A DNA stretch of 64,000 nt. Source: Flavobacteriales bacterium. GTDB taxonomy: Bacteria > Bacteroidota > Bacteroidia > Flavobacteriales_E > Vicingaceae. The notes beneath the pieces are model-generated. The model was not told the DNA's origin. It saw only the letters and a list, made by a program, of their open reading frames with translations, and did no database searches. Shown here one piece after another: positions 8,468-17,608 of the stretch. Location: the NCBI GenBank assembly GCA_018608405.1, contig JABAZP010000023.1, forward strand, positions 1 to 64,000, in the 5' to 3' direction. Each line of letters begins with the position of its first letter. Positions within the stretch are counted from its first letter, which is position 1. Both the position numbers and the translations under genes were made by a program.

Positions 8468-10188
8468 TGGGAAAAAATGCTCTAATTGAAATTAAAGATC
8501 TCTGCATAAGTTTTGGCGAGCAGAAAACAATTAAACACCTATCCTATATAGTAAAAGAAGGCGAAGTGCTTGGAGTGGTAGGTGAATCAGGCTCTGGAAA
8601 ATCACTTACTTCTTTAGCCGTAATGGGTCTCCTGCATCCTTCAGCAAATGTTGATTCTGGTGAGATTATATTTCATCATAACGGGAAATCTGTTGATTTA
8701 CTAAAGCTAAACGAAGATAAAACACGAAAATTTCGAGGCAATGATATTGCCATGATCTTTCAAGAACCAATGACTTCATTAAACCCAGTAATAAAATGCG
8801 GCGAACAAGTGGCTGAGGCGCTTCGACTGCATAAAAAACTTTCTAATAAAGAAGCTAAAGAGCGCACAATTGACTTATTTAAAGAAGTTCAACTACCTCG
8901 ACCAGAATCAATTTACGATTCTTATCCACATCAGATTTCAGGAGGCCAAAAGCAACGCGTGATGATTGCAATGGCAATTAGTTGTGAACCTAAACTATTG
9001 ATTGCGGATGAGCCTACAACTGCTCTAGACGTTACGGTGCAAAAAACCATTCTAGACCTTATAAAGTCCTTGCAAGTCAAACGTAACATGAGTGTCATAT
9101 TCATTACACATGATTTGGGAGTGGTTGCAGAAATTGCAAATCATGTTGTTGTTATGAAAGGTGGTGAAAAAGTTGAAAGTGGCACTACTCAACAACTATT
9201 TGAAAACCCAAAACACCCGTATACCAAAGGCTTATTAGCTTGCAGACCTCCCATTGACTTTCGGCTAAAAAAACTACCCATTGTTGAGGATTTTTTAGCA
9301 CTCGACCAACCTGTTAATGACTTTATCAATCAATTAAAAATAACACCACAGGAACAGCTCACTGAACTTGAAAAAGTTTTAAAACAAGACCATATCATAG
9401 AAGTTTCCAACTTAAATACACACTTTCCTATTCAACAAGGAGTTTTTAGAAAAACGGTTGGCTATGTAAAAGCAGTGAATGATGTATCCTTTCACGTTCA
9501 CAGAGGGGAAACACTCGGATTGGTTGGAGAGTCCGGTTGTGGAAAAACTACTCTAGGTCGCAGTATTTTGAGGTTAATTGAGCCTACTTCCGGAAGTGTT
9601 AAATATAACGGCGAAGAATTAATTACTCTTAATGCAGAAGCAATGAGAGTCAAACGAAAAGATTTGCAAATCATCTTTCAAGACCCATACTCATCTCTTA
9701 ATCCTAGAATGAAAGTAGGTCAGGCAATTTTAGAACCAATGCAGGTTCACAAAATTGAGGATAACAATAAGGTTAGAAAGGAAAAAGTAATTGATTTAAT
9801 GGAAACTGTTGGACTTCGGGCAGAACAGTTTGACCGCTACCCTCATGAGTTTTCTGGTGGTCAACGCCAACGGGTTTGTATTGCCAGAGCCTTAGCTATG
9901 AACCCAAAGTTTATTATTTGCGATGAGTCTGTTTCTGCACTAGACGTTTCTGTTCAGGCTCAAGTATTAAATTTATTAAACGAACTAAAGTCGAAATTCT
10001 CATTCTCTTATGTATTTATTTCTCACGATTTGTCCGTTGTAAAGTACATGAGCGACAGAATGATTGTAATGAAAGAGGGGCAAATTGAAGAAATGGGGAT
10101 TGCTGAAGATATTTACAGAAACCCACAGTCTATCTATACTCAAAAGTTGATTGAAGCTATTCCTAAGGTTGACTTTAGTTTGGTTTAA
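8467..10188 (+). CDS. Fused two-domain ABC ATPase of the oligopeptide/dipeptide type
   Basis: Two complete ABC cassettes lie in one chain of 573 aa, equivalent to a DppD-DppF or GsiA-like fusion. Cassette 1: Walker A GESGSGKS (about 37), signature SGGQKQR, Walker B LLIADEPT. Cassette 2: GESGCGKTT (about 356), [19 protein letters not shown]. Each is followed by the oligopeptide C-terminal extension (for example [11 protein letters not shown]). It would energise uptake of peptides or similar small molecules through permeases that are not encoded in this window. The 3' end overlaps the convergent SDR gene by 14 bases. Confidence 0.92.
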
Positions 10189-11623
10189 ACTTCACTAAAT
10201 TATTTGCCATATTCCAGAAAATAAAGTGATGGAATGGCACCATAGAATACCAATAAATTCTTCCAAATAACCCTTTTGGTCTGAAAGTAGCGGTTTGCGT
10301 TAGTCTAGCTTCACTGTCGTTATTAGACTCAACCTTGAACTCCAACCAAGCTTCTCCCGGAAGCCTCATTTCAGCAAACAGCAACAGTCTTCCTTCTTCT
10401 TTATCAGCTAACAGCACCCTCCAAAAATCCAAAGAATCTCCTGTATAAATATCGGTTGGGCTTCTTCTTCCTCTTCTTAACCCAACGCCTCCAAAAAATT
10501 TGTCTAAATACCCTCGTATTTCCCACATCCAGTTACCATAGTACCAACCTCTTTGCCCGCCAATTGCCCAAATGTTAGATAAAACAGAGGTTGATCTATC
10601 TTTAGGAAATACCACTTTTTTCTGATCAGTGAATGTTCCATTTTCAGGAACTTTTATATAGTAATTTAAGCCATACCCCTTTCTCAATTGCTCTGCATCT
10701 GTCCAGCTACTTACTACTGTGTTTTGCTCTATGCGTTTAAAGGCTAGCGATACGTTTTCCGTGTATGTCAACAAATCAATAGGAATAACCTCTTTAATGT
10801 CCCCAATTTTCACCACAACCTCATTCTTCATGCTGTCTACTAGGTTTACCGCTAAATGGTAAGAGGTAGATGTAACAAAATAAAGCCAGTATGAAGAAAG
10901 CTTAGGAGTCATGATTGGCACCGTTCCAATCCACCTCTTCATTTTTCTGACCTTTGCGAACTGCAAAAGCATTTCTTTGTAGGCCAATATTTCAGGTCCA
11001 CCAATATCAAATGTTTTAGCAAATACTTTCGGATTATTACAACATTCAATTAGGTACTCAATTACATTCCGAATACCGATAGGTTGGCATTTAGTTGTTA
11101 ACCACTTAGGAGCTATCATGACCGGTAATTTTTCTACTAAATCGCGAATGATTTCAAAAGAAGCGCTTCCCGATCCAATAATGATGGCAGCACGTAAGGT
11201 TGTTACAGGAACACTTGCTTCAGAAAGTAGGTCGCCAGTTTTTTGACGAGACTTAAGGTGGTCCGAAAGGGCATCATCGTTACTAATTCCGCTTAGGTAA
11301 ATGGTTTGCTTGGCAGATGTTTGGTTGATGTAACTGTTATAATTTTTAGCTACTTGTTCTTCTTTTTCTGAAAACCCTTGGCTACCAGAGGATAATGAAT
11401 GCATCAAAAAATAAGCAACGTCTATTTCCTTCGGAAGCTTTTCAACACTTAGGTAGTTTAAAAAGTCGACCTCCACTACTTCTACCTGCTGCTCTTCTGA
11501 CTTAGATAATCGAAGGGCATTTTTGTCGCGAACGCACGCAATAACTTCATGACCTTGCTGTAACAGCACCGGTAAGAGCCTTCTTCCTATATACCCATTT
11601 GCTCCAGTCAGTAATATTTTCAT
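10175..11623 (-). CDS. SDR-family NAD(P)-binding protein with C-terminal DUF2867
   Basis: A Rossmann domain (residues about 1-290) with GANGYIGRRLLP at the N-terminus resembles atypical short-chain dehydrogenases of the NmrA/complex I 39-kDa type. The C-terminal half (about 300-482) matches DUF2867, with the segment GDSLDFWRVL and many Trp residues. This two-domain architecture is often encoded beside photolyases in Bacteroidota, as here, where the CPD photolyase gene lies 101 bp upstream on the same strand. The substrate is not known. Confidence 0.82.
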   Translation of the reverse strand: MKILLTGANGYIGRRLLPVLLQQGHEVIACVRDKNALRLSKSEEQQVEVVEVDFLNYLSVEKLPKEIDVAYFLMHSLSSGSQGFSEKEEQVAKNYNSYINQTSAKQTIYLSGISNDDALSDHLKSRQKTGDLLSEASVPVTTLRAAIIIGSGSASFEIIRDLVEKLPVMIAPKWLTTKCQPIGIRNVIEYLIECCNNPKVFAKTFDIGGPEILAYKEMLLQFAKVRKMKRWIGTVPIMTPKLSSYWLYFVTSTSYHLAVNLVDSMKNEVVVKIGDIKEVIPIDLLTYTENVSLAFKRIEQNTVVSSWTDAEQLRKGYGLNYYIKVPENGTFTDQKKVVFPKDRSTSVLSNIWAIGGQRGWYYGNWMWEIRGYLDKFFGGVGLRRGRRSPTDIYTGDSLDFWRVLLADKEEGRLLLFAEMRLPGEAWLEFKVESNNDSEARLTQTATFRPKGLFGRIYWYSMVPFHHFIFWNMANNLVKFKPN

Positions 11624-11724: not shown

Positions 11725-13032
11725 CTAAGAATTCACCCCTTCCTTAAAAGCAGCAATTGCTCTTTCTCTGGCCATTTTATGTTCTACCATTTCCTTAGGG
11801 TATCGATCTGTTCCAAACTCAGGAACCCACTTTTTAATGTAAATACGGTCTTTATCGAACTTGTCAATTTGTGTAGTCGGATTGAACACCCTGAAGTAAG
11901 GTTGGGCATCTACTCCAGTTCCCGCCGACCATTGCCAATTTCCGTTATTCGATGACAATTCATAATCCAACAACTTTTCTGCGAAATAAGCTTCACCCCA
12001 TTTCCAATCAATCAAAAGGTGCTTGGTTAAAAAACTAGCAACTAACATTCTCACTCTATTGTGCATAAAGCCAGTCTGATTTAGTTCTCGCATTCCTGCA
12101 TCCACTAATGGGTAACCAGTTTGACCGGTTTTCCATTTTTCAAACTCTTTTTCATCGTTTCTCCATTGCACCCCATCGTATTTCTGGCTGTAGTTGTTCT
12201 CAACAACTCTCGGAAAATGATATAGAATACACATGAAAAACTCTCGCCAAATCAACTCTTTTAAGTAAGTATTTTCTTCACTTTTAGCTGCTTTAGCTGC
12301 CATTTTTCGTATGCTCACTGTTCCAAATCGGTAATGGATTCCCAAACGAGAGGTACTGTCTTTTGCAGGAAAATTTCTTTCATCGGCATAATGCTCTACA
12401 GTTGCAGCTTTCAATTCTTTACCAGGAAGTTCAATGTCTGTTTGCTGAAAACCCATTTCCTTCAATGGAATTATTTCTTTAAACCCGATGGACACCCAGT
12501 TTTCAAATTGTAATCCGGATGTATAGGGTTCATAGTCCTTTTCAGTTACTTCAGAAAGCCACTTCTTGCTGTAAGGAGTGTAAACCAAGTATGGAGTACC
12601 GTCATCTTTTAAAACCTCATCTGGTTCAAAAATTACTTGATCCTTATGGGTAAAAAATTTGGCTCTATCCTTTAGCAGCTCTTCAATTTGTGCATCTCGT
12701 TCAGTTGCGTAGGGTTCATAGTCCCTATTTGTATGTACTTCTCGAATATCGTATTCTTCTAATAGCTTCTTAAAAGTATTTAAAGGAGTGGAATAAAAAG
12801 TATGTAACTGTGTTCCTTTCGATTTTAATTCATTGTTTATTTCACTCAACTCTTGATGAATAAAGGAAACTCTAGCATCCTTTTTATCTGATAAATCTTT
12901 GAGTATGTTTTGATCAAAAATAAAAACTGGTAACACGGGGAAGTCACTTTTTAAGGCGTGATAAAGCCCTCGATTATCATCTAACCGTAAATCTCTTCTA
13001 AACCAAAAAATAGAAACTTTTTGTTTGCCCAT
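11725..13032 (-). CDS. phrB: Class I CPD deoxyribodipyrimidine photolyase
   Basis: Uses near-UV/blue light and FAD to split cyclobutane pyrimidine dimers. N-terminal alpha/beta antenna domain begins FWFRRDLRLDDN; the FAD domain carries GQTGYPLVDAGMREL, HNRVRMLVASFLTK and the NNGNWQWSAGTG segment, all hallmarks of class I CPD photolyases. At 435 aa it is slightly shorter than the usual 450-480. Start ATG overlaps the stop of the SDR gene upstream (TAATG), so it belongs to the crt/photolyase transcript and is likely controlled by the same light-responsive promoter. Confidence 0.93.
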   Translation of the reverse strand: MGKQKVSIFWFRRDLRLDDNRGLYHALKSDFPVLPVFIFDQNILKDLSDKKDARVSFIHQELSEINNELKSKGTQLHTFYSTPLNTFKKLLEEYDIREVHTNRDYEPYATERDAQIEELLKDRAKFFTHKDQVIFEPDEVLKDDGTPYLVYTPYSKKWLSEVTEKDYEPYTSGLQFENWVSIGFKEIIPLKEMGFQQTDIELPGKELKAATVEHYADERNFPAKDSTSRLGIHYRFGTVSIRKMAAKAAKSEENTYLKELIWREFFMCILYHFPRVVENNYSQKYDGVQWRNDEKEFEKWKTGQTGYPLVDAGMRELNQTGFMHNRVRMLVASFLTKHLLIDWKWGEAYFAEKLLDYELSSNNGNWQWSAGTGVDAQPYFRVFNPTTQIDKFDKDRIYIKKWVPEFGTDRYPKEMVEHKMARERAIAAFKEGVNS

Positions 13033-13721
13033 TATCTTAAACTACCCATTCCCCCATCAACAGAAATTACCTGTCCAGTCATCCATCGAGAGTCATCTCC
13101 AAGTAAAAATCGCGCTGTATTTGCCATATCTTCAGCCGTTCCAATTGACTTCAATGGATGACGATCAGCATTAGCCTTCTTTTTATCTTCGCTAGAAAGC
13201 AATCTTTCTGCTAAAGGAGTATCAGTTAAGGAAGGGGCAATTACGTTAACTCGAATACTAGGAGCCAGTTCGGCTGCCAAGGCTTTTCCTAATCCTTCTA
13301 TCGCTCCTTTTGCCGAAGCTACACTAGAGTGAAATGTTAATCCTGTTTGAACTGCTACCGTACTAAATAAGACAATCGATGCATTTTCAGACTTTTTTAA
13401 TGCCTTTAATGCTTGCTGAATAACTTTAACAGCTCCAAGATGATTTACTTTAAAATCGGTTAGGAAATCTTCTTCATTCAACCTATGAAATGGTTTTAAA
13501 TTGATAGACCCTGGACAATACACAACTGCATCTAATTGTTCTGGTAACTCTAATTGAAAGTCCTCTAAGACGTCAATCTTTTGGTATTTAATGTTTGGTC
13601 CAGTTACGTCACTTTCAGTTCTGGAAGCCAGATATAAGTGATTTGTTCCGTCATTTAATTGTGAAGCCAAGGCTGCTCCTATGCCGGAACTAGCTCCTAC
13701 GATTAAGATATTTTTTCCCAT
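13032..13721 (-). CDS. Short-chain dehydrogenase/reductase
   Basis: A classical SDR of 229 aa: cofactor motif GASSGIGAALA at the N-terminus, the NAG-like motif replaced by YCPGSIN, and a C-terminal DGGMGS tail. The expected catalytic YxxxK appears altered: the segment is HSSVASAKGAI, so Tyr is replaced by Ser or Val while Lys is kept. That would make it an atypical or weak oxidoreductase. An in-frame ATG at 13745 exists, but ATG 13721 gives the normal SDR N-terminus. It is translationally coupled to the photolyase gene, in the carotenoid/photolyase operon. Confidence 0.85.
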   Translation of the reverse strand: MGKNILIVGASSGIGAALASQLNDGTNHLYLASRTESDVTGPNIKYQKIDVLEDFQLELPEQLDAVVYCPGSINLKPFHRLNEEDFLTDFKVNHLGAVKVIQQALKALKKSENASIVLFSTVAVQTGLTFHSSVASAKGAIEGLGKALAAELAPSIRVNVIAPSLTDTPLAERLLSSEDKKKANADRHPLKSIGTAEDMANTARFLLGDDSRWMTGQVISVDGGMGSLR

Positions 13722-13785
13722 TATTCTATTTTTTGAATGAAACAAGGTGTTTCATATAATGTTTGAGCAAAGAATCGAAAGTGAA

Positions 13786-14622
13786 TTAAAGCATCCCCAA
13801 CTTATGCTTCAAAAAGCATTGTACTAAAATCGCATACTTCTTCCCATCAGTTATTCTGATACGTTCGTTTCGAATACGGTCTGCTTTGATGCCCTTTATT
13901 TTATCGAACAAGGCTAAATAATAACAATAGGCAGTATAAACCCCAAACTTTGAATTTTTAGGTAAATCCTTGATTCCTTTAAATCCATCTTGAAAATCCT
14001 TTAAAATATCGGCTTCTATTCCCCGTTTTTGCTCATCGTTGAAACTTTCTATAGTAACATTTGGAAAGTACGTTCTGCCTTTGTCGTCAAAGTCATCTTT
14101 CAAATCACGCAAAAAATTAATTTTCTGAAACGCTGCTCCTAAACGTTTTGCAGGGAATTTCAACTTTTGATATTCGCTCTCATCTCCTTGGCAAAACACT
14201 CTTAAACACATTAGCCCCACTACTTCGGCAGAACCATAAATGTATTCCTCATATTCTGCTCGAGTGTATTCTGTCTTCGATAAGTCCCATTCCATGCTTT
14301 TTATAAAAGCATCAATTAATTCTTGCTCAATACTGTACTTGTTTACAGCCCACTGAAAAGAATGCAAAACGGGATTTAAACTCAGTTTGCGTTTTATTGC
14401 AAGGTTGGTTTCATTAACGAACTCGTCCAACAAGGTTTTTTTATCTTGTTGGTGAAAGGTATCTACTATCTCGTCCGCCAAGCGAACAAAACCATAGATA
14501 GCATAAATTGGGTCATGAATTTCATTCCCCAACGCTTTAATACCCAATGAAAAAGAAGTGCTATAACAATTTGTTACCACCTTGCTAGATAGCAAAGATG
14601 CTTCTTGATACAAAGCTTCCAT
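13786..14622 (-). CDS. crtB: Phytoene synthase
   Basis: Condenses two geranylgeranyl diphosphates to phytoene, the first committed step of carotenoid synthesis. The two Asp-rich metal motifs are present: DEIVD (about residues 50-54, after GFVRLA) and DLKDDFDDKGR (about 170-180, after NFLR). Length 278 aa is normal for a bacterial CrtB. The gene starts four bases after the crtI stop, a tight crtI-crtB pair as commonly seen in Bacteroidota. Confidence 0.95.
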   Translation of the reverse strand: MEALYQEASLLSSKVVTNCYSTSFSLGIKALGNEIHDPIYAIYGFVRLADEIVDTFHQQDKKTLLDEFVNETNLAIKRKLSLNPVLHSFQWAVNKYSIEQELIDAFIKSMEWDLSKTEYTRAEYEEYIYGSAEVVGLMCLRVFCQGDESEYQKLKFPAKRLGAAFQKINFLRDLKDDFDDKGRTYFPNVTIESFNDEQKRGIEADILKDFQDGFKGIKDLPKNSKFGVYTAYCYYLALFDKIKGIKADRIRNERIRITDGKKYAILVQCFLKHKLGML

Positions 14623-14626
14623 ACTA

Positions 14627-16099
14627 CTAAGCTAAGGTTTTTAAAACTTCTTTTGCAACAACTTGCCCAGAAATTAAGCTTGGTGGGACACCTGGACCGG
14701 GCGTTGTTAGTTGACCCGTGTAAAAGAGGTTTTTTAACTTTTTATTTCTCAAGTTCGGCTTTAAAATAGCTGTTTGCTTCAACGTATTCGCCAAACCATA
14801 TGCATTTCCTTTAAACGCATGGTAATCCGCCTTAAAGTCTGAGTGGGCGTATGATTTTTTGTAAATCACGTGTTCTCTAATGTTTTGATTTGTCAAGGAC
14901 TCAAGTCGATCCATTACCATGTGATAATACTTTTCTCTTGTCGCCTCATCATCTTTTAAATCTGGTGCAACCGGGATTAATATAAATACATTTTCTTTTC
15001 CATCAGGTGCCACAGTGCCGTCCGTAATTGAAGGTACACAAACATAAAACAGGGGGTTGCTGGGCCATTTGGGGTCGTCATAAATTTCTATTGCATGCTG
15101 ATTAAATGATTCATCGAAGAAAAGGTTGTGATGTCTCAGTTTTTCAACTTTTTTATCTAGGCCTAGATAAAATAACAAACTAGAAGGAGCCATTTTCCTT
15201 TTATCCCAATATTCAGCGGAATAGTTGTGAAACTCTGCGTCTAATAGATGCTTGTCTGTATGATGATAATCTGCTCCAGAAATAAAGTGAGTTCCTTTAA
15301 AATCACCTTTTGTAGTGATAGCTTTTGAAACCTTACCATTCTTTACTTCTAGTTTTTTTACTTCACAGTCTAACACAAACTCGACTCCTTTTTCTTTCGC
15401 CAATGCAGTCATCCCTTCTACTATTTTATGCATTCCGCCCAAGGGATACCATGTACCCAATTTAATGTCAGCAAAATTCATAAGACTGTATAATGCCGGT
15501 GTTTCCTGTGGTTTTGCTCCTAAAAACAACACCGGAAACTCCAGCAGTTCAATTAATTTAGGGTTAGTAAAGTGTTTTCGGATATGCTTGCTGATAGAAC
15601 TAAACAATTGCAATTTAAACACCCCAGCAATGACTTTCCATTGTGCAAATTCCAATATTGATTGACTTGGCTTGTGCACCAAATCATCCATTCCTACTCG
15701 GTATTTGTATTCCCCTTCTGAAAGAAATTTGTCTAATTCAGCGCCACTCCCTTTTTCATATTTTTCGAAAAGCGCTTTTAGCTCAGTATAGGCCGCAGGA
15801 ATGTCAACAAACTCTTTATCTTGGAATATAACTTGGTAACTTGGGTCTAATCGGACTAACTCGTAATAATCTGAAACTTTTTTACCAAAGCGTTCAAAGT
15901 AGGCATCAAAAACATCAGGCATCCAGTACCAACTTGGGCCCATATCAAAAGTAAAACCGGAGGCAGAGAACTGTCTAGCTCTACCTCCGGTTTGAGAATT
16001 TTTTTCTAAAATCGTGACTTTTTTACCTTCTGCCGCTAAGCTGGTTGCTGATGCAAGAGACGAAAAGCCCGAACCTATTACAATAATATTTTCTGTCAA
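14627..16099 (-). CDS. crtI: Phytoene desaturase (lycopene-forming type)
   Basis: An FAD-dependent desaturase of 490 aa: dinucleotide-binding motif VIGSGFSSLASA at residues about 6-17, then EKNSQTGGRARQF, and the C-terminal CrtI signature FYTGQLTTPGPGVPPSLISGQ. It should introduce the double bonds that convert phytoene to lycopene. No lycopene cyclase (crtY) is in the operon; a crtZ hydroxylase is encoded at about 52 kb. The gene follows the ECF sigma gene by 21 bases. Confidence 0.95.
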   Translation of the reverse strand: MTENIIVIGSGFSSLASATSLAAEGKKVTILEKNSQTGGRARQFSASGFTFDMGPSWYWMPDVFDAYFERFGKKVSDYYELVRLDPSYQVIFQDKEFVDIPAAYTELKALFEKYEKGSGAELDKFLSEGEYKYRVGMDDLVHKPSQSILEFAQWKVIAGVFKLQLFSSISKHIRKHFTNPKLIELLEFPVLFLGAKPQETPALYSLMNFADIKLGTWYPLGGMHKIVEGMTALAKEKGVEFVLDCEVKKLEVKNGKVSKAITTKGDFKGTHFISGADYHHTDKHLLDAEFHNYSAEYWDKRKMAPSSLLFYLGLDKKVEKLRHHNLFFDESFNQHAIEIYDDPKWPSNPLFYVCVPSITDGTVAPDGKENVFILIPVAPDLKDDEATREKYYHMVMDRLESLTNQNIREHVIYKKSYAHSDFKADYHAFKGNAYGLANTLKQTAILKPNLRNKKLKNLFYTGQLTTPGPGVPPSLISGQVVAKEVLKTLA

Positions 16100-16120: not shown

Positions 16121-16624
16121 TTATGCAAAATCCTTTAATGCATCCGTTAGTTTTTTTCGAGCAAGAAAAATACGGCTTTTTACTGTTCCAATAGGCATGT
16201 TCAACTCGTCAGCGATTTCCTTATACTTATACCCATCAAAATGCATTTGAAATGGAATTTTACATTCATCATTTAATGACTCTACTGTTTTCAAAATATC
16301 CTTATGATTATATTCTGAATCTGGAGTTACAGGAGAGACCTTTTTTGTTGAGTTTACAAAGTAGTCGTCATCTGTATTATCCATTATTGTTCTTTTACGA
16401 ACATTTCTTCGATAATTATTGATGAAAGTGTTTTTCATAATTGTGTATAACCACGCTTTCAAATTAGTTGCTTCTTGAAACTTATCCTTATACTTAAGAG
16501 CCTTGAGAAAGGTTTCTTGCAATAAGTCTTCCGCATCTTCATTATCGGATGTTAATTTTAACGCAAAATATTTTAATGGATTCTGAAAGGAAATTAATTG
16601 CTGATTGAATTCTATTGCTGTCAT
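16121..16624 (-). CDS. ECF RNA polymerase sigma factor heading the crt operon
   Basis: A 167-aa sigma-70 family protein with region 2 (NEDAEDLLQETFLKALKYKDKF, about 27-48) and region 4 (about 110-160, MPIGTVKSRIFLARKKL as the recognition helix). No anti-sigma gene lies beside it. Its gene sits between a CarH/LitR-like regulator and crtI, so it probably amplifies a light response by driving crt, photolyase or distant genes. Its own promoter (16666-16696) overlaps an inverted repeat. Related arrangements are known for light-induced carotenogenesis in other bacteria; the link here is inferred. Confidence 0.9.
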   Translation of the reverse strand: MTAIEFNQQLISFQNPLKYFALKLTSDNEDAEDLLQETFLKALKYKDKFQEATNLKAWLYTIMKNTFINNYRRNVRKRTIMDNTDDDYFVNSTKKVSPVTPDSEYNHKDILKTVESLNDECKIPFQMHFDGYKYKEIADELNMPIGTVKSRIFLARKKLTDALKDFA

Positions 16625-16636
16625 AACTTTATATAT

Positions 16637-16669
16637 TTTGAATCGTTTGTTTAATTATTTCGATTCAAA
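16637..16669. promoter_or_regulatory. Inverted repeat, candidate operator of the crt/photolyase operon
   Basis: Perfect 9-bp arms TTTGAATCG (16637-16645) and CGATTCAAA (16661-16669), separated by 15 bp. The right arm overlaps the -7 element of the minus-strand promoter and the repeat covers the expected transcription start. A repressor bound here would block the promoter. The adjacent B12-binding MerR protein is the obvious candidate. Confidence 0.6.
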
Positions 16670-16696
16670 GATAAACAATATGTTACTACATGCAAA
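16666..16696 (-). promoter_or_regulatory. Promoter of the sigma-crtI-crtB-SDR-photolyase operon
   Basis: Read on the minus strand, TTTG (16696-16693), a 19-bp spacer, and TATCTTTG (16673-16666) match the Bacteroidota sigma-A consensus TTTG-N19-TAnnTTTG exactly. Transcription would begin around 16660, giving a leader of about 35 nt before the sigma gene. Confidence 0.7.
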
Positions 16697-16707
16697 TATT
16701 TTGTTCG

Positions 16708-16737
16708 GTTTTTTGTTAAAAATGTTAAACAAAAAAC
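16708..16737 (-). terminator. AT-rich hairpin after the MerR gene
   Basis: GTTTTTTGTT (16708-16717) pairs perfectly with AACAAAAAAC (16728-16737), loop 10. It lies 10 bases after the MerR stop codon and before the crt-operon promoter. It has no GC-rich stem, so termination is likely weak; it may separate the two transcripts. Confidence 0.35.
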
Positions 16738-16747
16738 TAATTTGATT

Positions 16748-17608
16748 TTAAATTACCTCAGAATGCGAGGTAATCTCTTTTACATTAGGCGGATACAAAA
16801 TAGACGCGTCTTTCTGAAAACTGTTTACTAATAAATAGTTTTCATCAGATTCACACTCACCAAGTTCTTCAACAAGACTCTGTAAACCCCCTTTTGGGCT
16901 AATTACAGAGTAGGTTAACACCCAATTCGGCTTGATAACCTTAGCCGCTTTTTTAATTTGCTTTATAGGCGCGGATTGACCAAAATAATAAACTCTTACC
17001 CCTCTCTTTTTGTACAAATAGGCAAAAAACAAAAGCCCCAATTCATGGTATTCTCCTTCTGGGAGAAAAAGTATCACCTTTTTAGACTTCTCCGAGTTTT
17101 TGGGTAGTGACTCAATAGCAACAGATATTTTTTGACGAATAATATGAGTCATAAAGTGCTCTTGAGCAGGATCTACTCCATCGGTTAACCACAATATTCC
17201 AACTTTTTCCAAAAAAGGATACAATACATCTGTAAATGTATTCTCCACACCTATCTCTTTGTAATATGATTCTAATAGATTATTGATTTTGTCCTCATCA
17301 AATGAAAGCATCGGAAAAATGAGGTCATCGATCCGTTTTTGATTGATTAATTCTGTATTCGTGACTTGCGACACGGCATCTTTTAACTGCTCTTCATCTA
17401 ATTCAACTATTTTAGATATTTTCTTCCCGTCGTTTGATAAAATGGCAACATTTAGAAGCTTTTTCAGATCTGAATCTGAATAGTACCGGATATTCGTATC
17501 TGTTCTATGCGGTTCAAAAAGATTGTATCGTTTCTCCCAAATTCTTAAAGTGTGCGCTTTGATCCCTGATAAACGTTCTAATTCTTTTATGGAGTAGTTT
17601 CCCATCAT
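16748..17608 (-). CDS. MerR-family regulator with cobalamin-binding domain (CarH/LitR-like)
   Basis: A protein of 286 aa. The N-terminal winged MerR helix-turn-helix (about 4-70) shows YSIKELERLSGIKAHTLRIWEKRY. The middle four-helix region (about 75-180) contains W-x9-EH (Trp in ILWLTDG, then EH in QEHFMTH), the CarH motif that covers the upper axial face of adenosylcobalamin. The C-terminal Rossmann-like domain has EYHELG, an E-x-H-x-x-G form of the DxHxxG motif that supplies the lower His ligand. CarH/LitR proteins repress carotenoid genes in the dark and let go when light breaks the B12 Co-C bond. Position directly upstream of the sigma/crt operon supports that role. Confidence 0.9.
   Translation of the reverse strand: MMGNYSIKELERLSGIKAHTLRIWEKRYNLFEPHRTDTNIRYYSDSDLKKLLNVAILSNDGKKISKIVELDEEQLKDAVSQVTNTELINQKRIDDLIFPMLSFDEDKINNLLESYYKEIGVENTFTDVLYPFLEKVGILWLTDGVDPAQEHFMTHIIRQKISVAIESLPKNSEKSKKVILFLPEGEYHELGLLFFAYLYKKRGVRVYYFGQSAPIKQIKKAAKVIKPNWVLTYSVISPKGGLQSLVEELGECESDENYLLVNSFQKDASILYPPNVKEITSHSEVI

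Follow-up and report, generated by a model that had tools for sequence, protein, structure and literature searches.

In Streptomyces coelicolor, which belongs to a different phylum, a LitR-type regulator and an ECF sigma factor (LitR-LitS) serve carotenoid genes, a combination that recurs in the locus described here. In the CarH protein of Thermus thermophilus, the histidine that follows the tryptophan of the Wx9EH motif caps the cobalt following illumination. The published criterion for CarH is the presence of both signature motifs (PMC8156234); the operators of B12-type CarH proteins consist of tandem 11-bp direct repeats, nnnnTnnACAn (PMC9304148, PMC8156234), and the operator of class II LitR is TGTACA-N12-TGTACA (PMC9758184). 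For Bacteroidota, we found no relevant description of a CarH/LitR operator, or of the motif string reported below, in the open-access literature, and an earlier account elsewhere is possible.

We examined a 64-kb stretch of DNA (hereinafter, the window) from a member of the Vicingaceae, a group of marine Flavobacteriales. The minus strand of the window encodes, in this order, a CarH/LitR-like MerR regulator (16748..17608), an ECF sigma factor with the Pfam domains Sigma70_r2 and r4_2 (16121..16624), a CrtI-type phytoene desaturase that scores above the cut-off of the bifunctional CrtID model (14627..16099), CrtB of the phytoene/squalene synthase family (13786..14622), a short-chain dehydrogenase (SDR; 13032..13745), a protein of the DNA photolyase family (11725..13032) and an NmrA-like/DUF2867 protein (10175..11623). 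The sigma factor gene is the first of the putatively controlled operon and is separated from merR by 123 bp. In this gap, the string TTTG-N19-TATCTTTG (minus strand, 16696-16666), with the -33 element TTTG at 16693..16696 and the -7 element TATCTTTG at 16666..16673, agrees exactly with the Bacteroidota sigma-A pattern, namely, TTTG or TTG about 19 bp from TAnnTTTG. By itself, the exact string is weak proof because it is not rare: 0.87 matches are expected in 64 kb and one is observed. The case for a promoter therefore needs comparative backing. In related genomes, TAnnTTTG is retained in a constant position relative to the conserved operator described below, and 12 of the 18 loci with the same register also have the N19 spacing, so the sigma-A type promoter proposed in the initial, sequence-only reading appears to be real. 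In Flavobacterium psychrophilum, the TAnnTTTG box has been placed at -12 to -5 (PMC9723704) and, by analogy, transcription of the sigma/crt operon is predicted to start near 16661. The spacer between the two boxes also contains TGTAnnnACA (16681-16690), which is conserved in several Vicingaceae (as TGTATATACA in some of them) and is possibly an extra weak half-site.

The main putative operator, denoted O2, is the inverted repeat TGTTTA-TCTTTGAATCGAAATAAT-TAAACA on the minus strand (16648..16677), in which all 12 positions of the two arms match and the flanking bases extend the symmetry to TTGTTTA..TAAACAA. It spans approximately -16 to +14 and so covers the -7 box together with the predicted start site. 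Among 108 upstream regions of sigma factor orthologs, 99 of which are distinct, TGTTTA-N18-TAAACA occurs 76 times at the exact N18 spacing in the distinct regions, compared to 0.0 when dinucleotides were shuffled (30 sets), and the next best of the short spacings, N19, yields 12 occurrences; in the genus analyzed here and in most of the family, the repeat is intact at 12 of 12 positions. With one further base at either end, the repeat is found at two places in the 2.6-Mb genome, and the reversed control pattern at none. A weaker putative operator, O1 (TGTTTA-N18-CGAACA; 16702..16731, minus strand), matches at 10 of 12 positions, starts 54 bp upstream of O2, spans approximately -70 to -41 and lies outside the region considered in the sequence-only reading (16637-16696). 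At the same spacing, two relatives from the same genus match at 11 and 12 of 12 positions (L003 and L005, respectively), and a third (L004) has no counterpart with at least 10 matches. Across loci, the distances between the two copies cluster at 43-44, 53-55 and 62-65 bp, which suggests, without proving it, binding on one face of the DNA; a formal period test on these spacings gave no sharp peak.

Two other arrangements were considered and rejected. The 11-bp direct repeats typical of CarH are not the organizing pattern: family-wide, direct repeats at 11 bp number 2 for TAAACA (0.1 expected) and 14 for TnnACA (2.4 expected), compared to 107 inverted N18 repeats of TnnACA (1.3 expected), and the promoter in the window contains no TnnACA elements spaced by 11 bp. 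A signal from 21-bp direct repeats of TGTnnA/TnnACA (46 versus 3.1) was attributed, on inspection, to the TTTG of the -7 box adjoining TTAAACA.

The MerR protein contains the Pfam domains MerR_1 and B12-binding_2 and matches the NCBIfam CarH model with E=2e-27 and 96 bits, below the cut-off of 400. The best PDB matches by sequence are 3whp and 5c8d, the latter being T. thermophilus CarH (E=9e-18), and the best matches to the fold of an AlphaFold2 model (pLDDT 90.5) are the CarH structures 5c8e and 5c8d; the protein combines a MerR DNA-binding domain with a B12-type C-terminal fold, as CarH does. The Wx9EH motif is retained (W140, E150, H151), the tryptophan and the glutamate in all 77 Bacteroidota homologs and the histidine in 75 of these. 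Of the second signature, the ExHxxG portion is retained as well (E186-Y-H188-E-L-G191; histidine in 75, glutamate in 74 and the final glycine in 60 of the 77 homologs), but in the remainder, x41-SxV/T-x22-27-GG, the residues that align with SxV/T and GG are YSV and VN, respectively, and this nucleotide-tail motif is degraded in much of the family. With only one of the two published signature motifs fully kept, the protein fits the definition of CarH only in part, so we call it CarH-like; given the replaced SxV/T and GG, binding of adenosylcobalamin is not assured.

The scheme that we consider probable is that, in the dark, this protein binds O2, over the -7 box and the start of the sigma-A promoter, as well as the weaker O1 five helical turns upstream, probably in a cooperative manner, and thereby blocks RNA polymerase by promoter occlusion; its release would allow transcription of the cluster of genes for the ECF sigma factor, CrtI, CrtB, the SDR and photolyase. 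Comparison among genomes establishes the operator, its link to MerR, the promoter register and the regulon; direct binding, repression rather than activation, and cooperativity are inferred. By precedent with CarH and from the retained motifs, light acting on adenosylcobalamin would be the signal for release.

The alternative that survives best concerns this signal. The same repressor could act at the same operator in response to something other than photolysis of adenosylcobalamin, be it in a B12-independent mode, as in CarA and class II LitR, which provide the precedents, or through another ligand or a partner photoreceptor. Apart from the degraded SxV/T and GG positions, this possibility gains from the residue that follows the tryptophan of Wx9EH, which is a leucine here (residue 141; 17186-17188, minus strand) instead of the histidine engaged in the light state, and mostly glutamine or leucine across the 77 homologs, so that this protein probably does not form the bis-histidine light adduct seen in CarH of T. 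thermophilus. Against it, the tryptophan, the glutamate and the lower-ligand histidine are each kept in 75-77 of the 77 homologs, the B12 independence of CarA is largely explained by the missing Wx9EH motif (PMC8156234), and the PDB lists crystal structures of the T. thermophilus domain with the H132A substitution in both the dark and the light-exposed state. On balance, we regard a different signal as unlikely, even if it is by far the most serious competitor of the adenosylcobalamin reading.

The position of the promoter relative to the operator bears on the mode of action. Among the 74 loci whose proximal repeat is good, TAnnTTTG begins at offsets of -6 (14 loci), +4 (18 loci, including that in the window) and +15 (20 loci) relative to the repeat, with hardly any other offsets represented. 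These offsets differ in steps of one helical turn, although the phasing may in part reflect sequence economy, as the repeat and the promoter box have bases in common in the -6 and +4 registers. The +15 register puts the repeat between the -33 and -7 boxes, similarly to the sites of MerR activators, and so lends some appeal to the view that the protein is a classical activator of this type that binds the spacer and retwists the DNA. However, in the -6 register and in the +4 register, to which the window belongs, the dyad coincides with the start site or lies downstream of it, a location from which activation by twisting is not expected; moreover, the occurrence of three registers suits occlusion better, and the protein has the fold and motifs of CarH, a repressor family. 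Activation thus seems highly improbable, and we favor occlusion.

The identity of the binder is suggested by the distribution of the sites. The repeat is present at 58 of the 66 loci in which a merR gene adjoins that for the sigma factor, compared to 17 of the 33 loci in which it does not (Fisher p=1.4e-4); a close site is missing at the other 8 of the 66. In 41 of 60 genomes, a CarH-like MerR is encoded, and these contain 132 exact sites against 36 for the reversed-pattern control, whereas the 19 genomes that lack it show no excess (20 against 30), a highly significant difference (Mann-Whitney p=3e-6). In relatives that lack the sigma factor, the site directly precedes crtI (L177-L179, L189, L190) and/or merR (L173-L175), and in one genome (G012; loci L011 and L172), where operator-sigma-photolyase and merR-operator-crtI-crtB reside on separate contigs, a site is present at the sigma promoter as well as between merR and crtI. 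Conversely, two loci whose MerR proteins lack the B12 motifs (L073, L099) also lack a good proximal site. Hence the adjacent CarH-like MerR protein, in line with the CarH/LitR-type repressor named in the sequence-only reading, is most likely the binder of TGTTTA-N18-TAAACA, an assignment that the association across genomes upholds. That the repeat is instead bound by another regulator, of the CRP/FNR type or the ECF sigma factor itself, with MerR being a mere neighbor, is, in our estimate, slightly less probable still than activation. A precedent of sorts comes from Thermus, where LdrP, a CRP/FNR protein, reportedly acts with CarH/LitR in the control of carotenoid synthesis, but the excess of sites is confined to the genomes that encode MerR and no CRP/FNR protein is seen among the genes of the cluster. 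The sigma factor was rejected as the binder because the sites persist at merR and crtI in genomes without it.

Several further features of these loci deserve mention. In the sigma-lacking loci L173-L175, a small gene, that of L174 encoding a SOUL heme-binding protein, is divergent from merR and precedes crtI; the shared gap contains operators. One genome (G068) encodes three CarH-like MerR copies. At four sigma loci in which no adjacent MerR was detected (L087-L089, L092), an 11/12 near-match is located off the promoter, about 199 bp 5' of the sigma gene.

The operator originally named in the sequence-only reading was a different repeat, TTTGAATCG-N15-CGATTCAAA (16637..16669), with its dyad about 9.5 bp downstream of that of O2. 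The repeat is there as described, with 9 of 9 bases pairing between the arms (16637-16645 and 16661-16669) across an N15 loop and with an overlap with the -7 box, but that it is the true operator is hardly credible: the exact pattern is absent from all other fetched loci, the search upstream of orthologous sigma genes having returned nothing beyond copies of the same locus, the arms are altered in all three same-genus upstream regions compared, and repeats of this kind are common here, with 17 inverted repeats that have perfect 9-bp arms and loops of 3-20 in the AT-rich 64-kb window and at least one in about 6% of the shuffles of the intergenic region. Being unconserved in close relatives, it fails the test that the reading itself had set, and we judge it incidental. 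The layout that was envisaged, a steric block at the -7 box and the start of transcription, appears to hold, since a conserved repeat does lie there; the sequence assigned to the operator was wrong. The original proposal is thus confirmed in part, in that the pigment-gene promoter does appear to carry a putative repressor site.

The conserved site apparently outlines a small, seemingly undescribed gene network across many Bacteroidota. It precedes genes for secreted DUF4397 proteins in the genome analyzed here (G000:C10:40374) and in G010, G013, G017, G023, G049 and G056, genes for fasciclin proteins in G001, G004, G007 and G024, those for SOUL heme-binding and DUF2867 proteins in G026, G033 and G017, a gene for an SRPBCC-like protein in G008, G021 and G031, and a carotenoid-hydroxylase-like gene in G049, so named from inspection of the sequence, with no match in Pfam. 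The G017 homolog of the NmrA/DUF2867 gene of the window carries its own TGTTTA-N18-TAAACA site. The secreted fasciclin proteins with the operator come from four Vicingaceae genomes (L237, L238, L243, L181), and DUF4397 proteins take their role elsewhere (L239, L240, L242). The second exact operator in the genome analyzed here (G000:C10:40374-40403; L112 1501-1530, L187) precedes a gene for a DUF4397 protein with a T9SS tail that has no in-frame ATG, GTG or TTG near the signal peptide and whose sorting domain is interrupted by an in-frame TAG (NPSNG*FTLEF), defects that could reflect decay, a rare start or an assembly error.

We see about an even chance that these regulators comprise a CarH-like class of the Bacteroidota's own, defined by the TGTTTA-N18-TAAACA operator, paired binding on one face at spacings of four to six turns and altered B12 chemistry, with no light adduct of the adjacent histidine and a degenerate tail pocket, and with control over an ECF sigma cascade, the genes for carotenoids and photolyase, and secreted surface proteins of the fasciclin and DUF4397 types. 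If so, this would be a phylum-wide operator for B12-type photoregulators in Bacteroidota that is directly testable, light regulons could be read from genome sequences, and surface proteins would be predicted as light targets beside carotenoids. The question then arises of what enables a CarH-type protein to recognize an inverted repeat rather than tandem direct repeats.

Compared to the CarH proteins of T. thermophilus and Bacillus megaterium, the protein described here shares the MerR winged helix-turn-helix and B12-type C-terminus, the Wx9EH and ExHxxG motifs, a carotenoid target and a (putative) operator that overlaps a housekeeping promoter, and its presumed half-site, TAAACA, conforms to the TnnACA element of CarH (PMC9304148, PMC8156234). 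By contrast, the CarH operator consists of three or four 11-bp direct repeats rather than a 30-bp inverted repeat whose arms are 18 bp apart and that is often present in two copies, and in the present case SxV/T...GG is degraded and the light-state histidine is replaced. The operator of Myxococcus xanthus CarA/CarH, at about -70 to -19, has a similar upstream limit (-70), CarA was once proposed to recognize one perfect and one imperfect inverted repeat, resembling the two copies seen here, and two CarA dimers bind cooperatively, as is proposed in our case; however, that operator has been reinterpreted as 11-bp repeats near -35, whereas the main site here lies over -7/+1 with N18, and here the sigma gene is a direct putative target. 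The class II LitR proteins PplR1 and PmlR2 of Pseudomonas have in common with this system an inverted operator of two half-sites, the presence of two sites, one on the start-site side, and a photolyase gene in the regulon, which is light-inducible in Pseudomonas. They differ in that their B12 domain is incomplete, the partner in P. mendocina is a LOV photoreceptor, and the operator is T(G/A)TACA-N12-TGTA(C/T)A, against TGTTTA/TAAACA with N18 here. The inverted, often duplicated N18 arrangement therefore differs from the known operators of both CarH and class II LitR and seems to represent a new operator variant.
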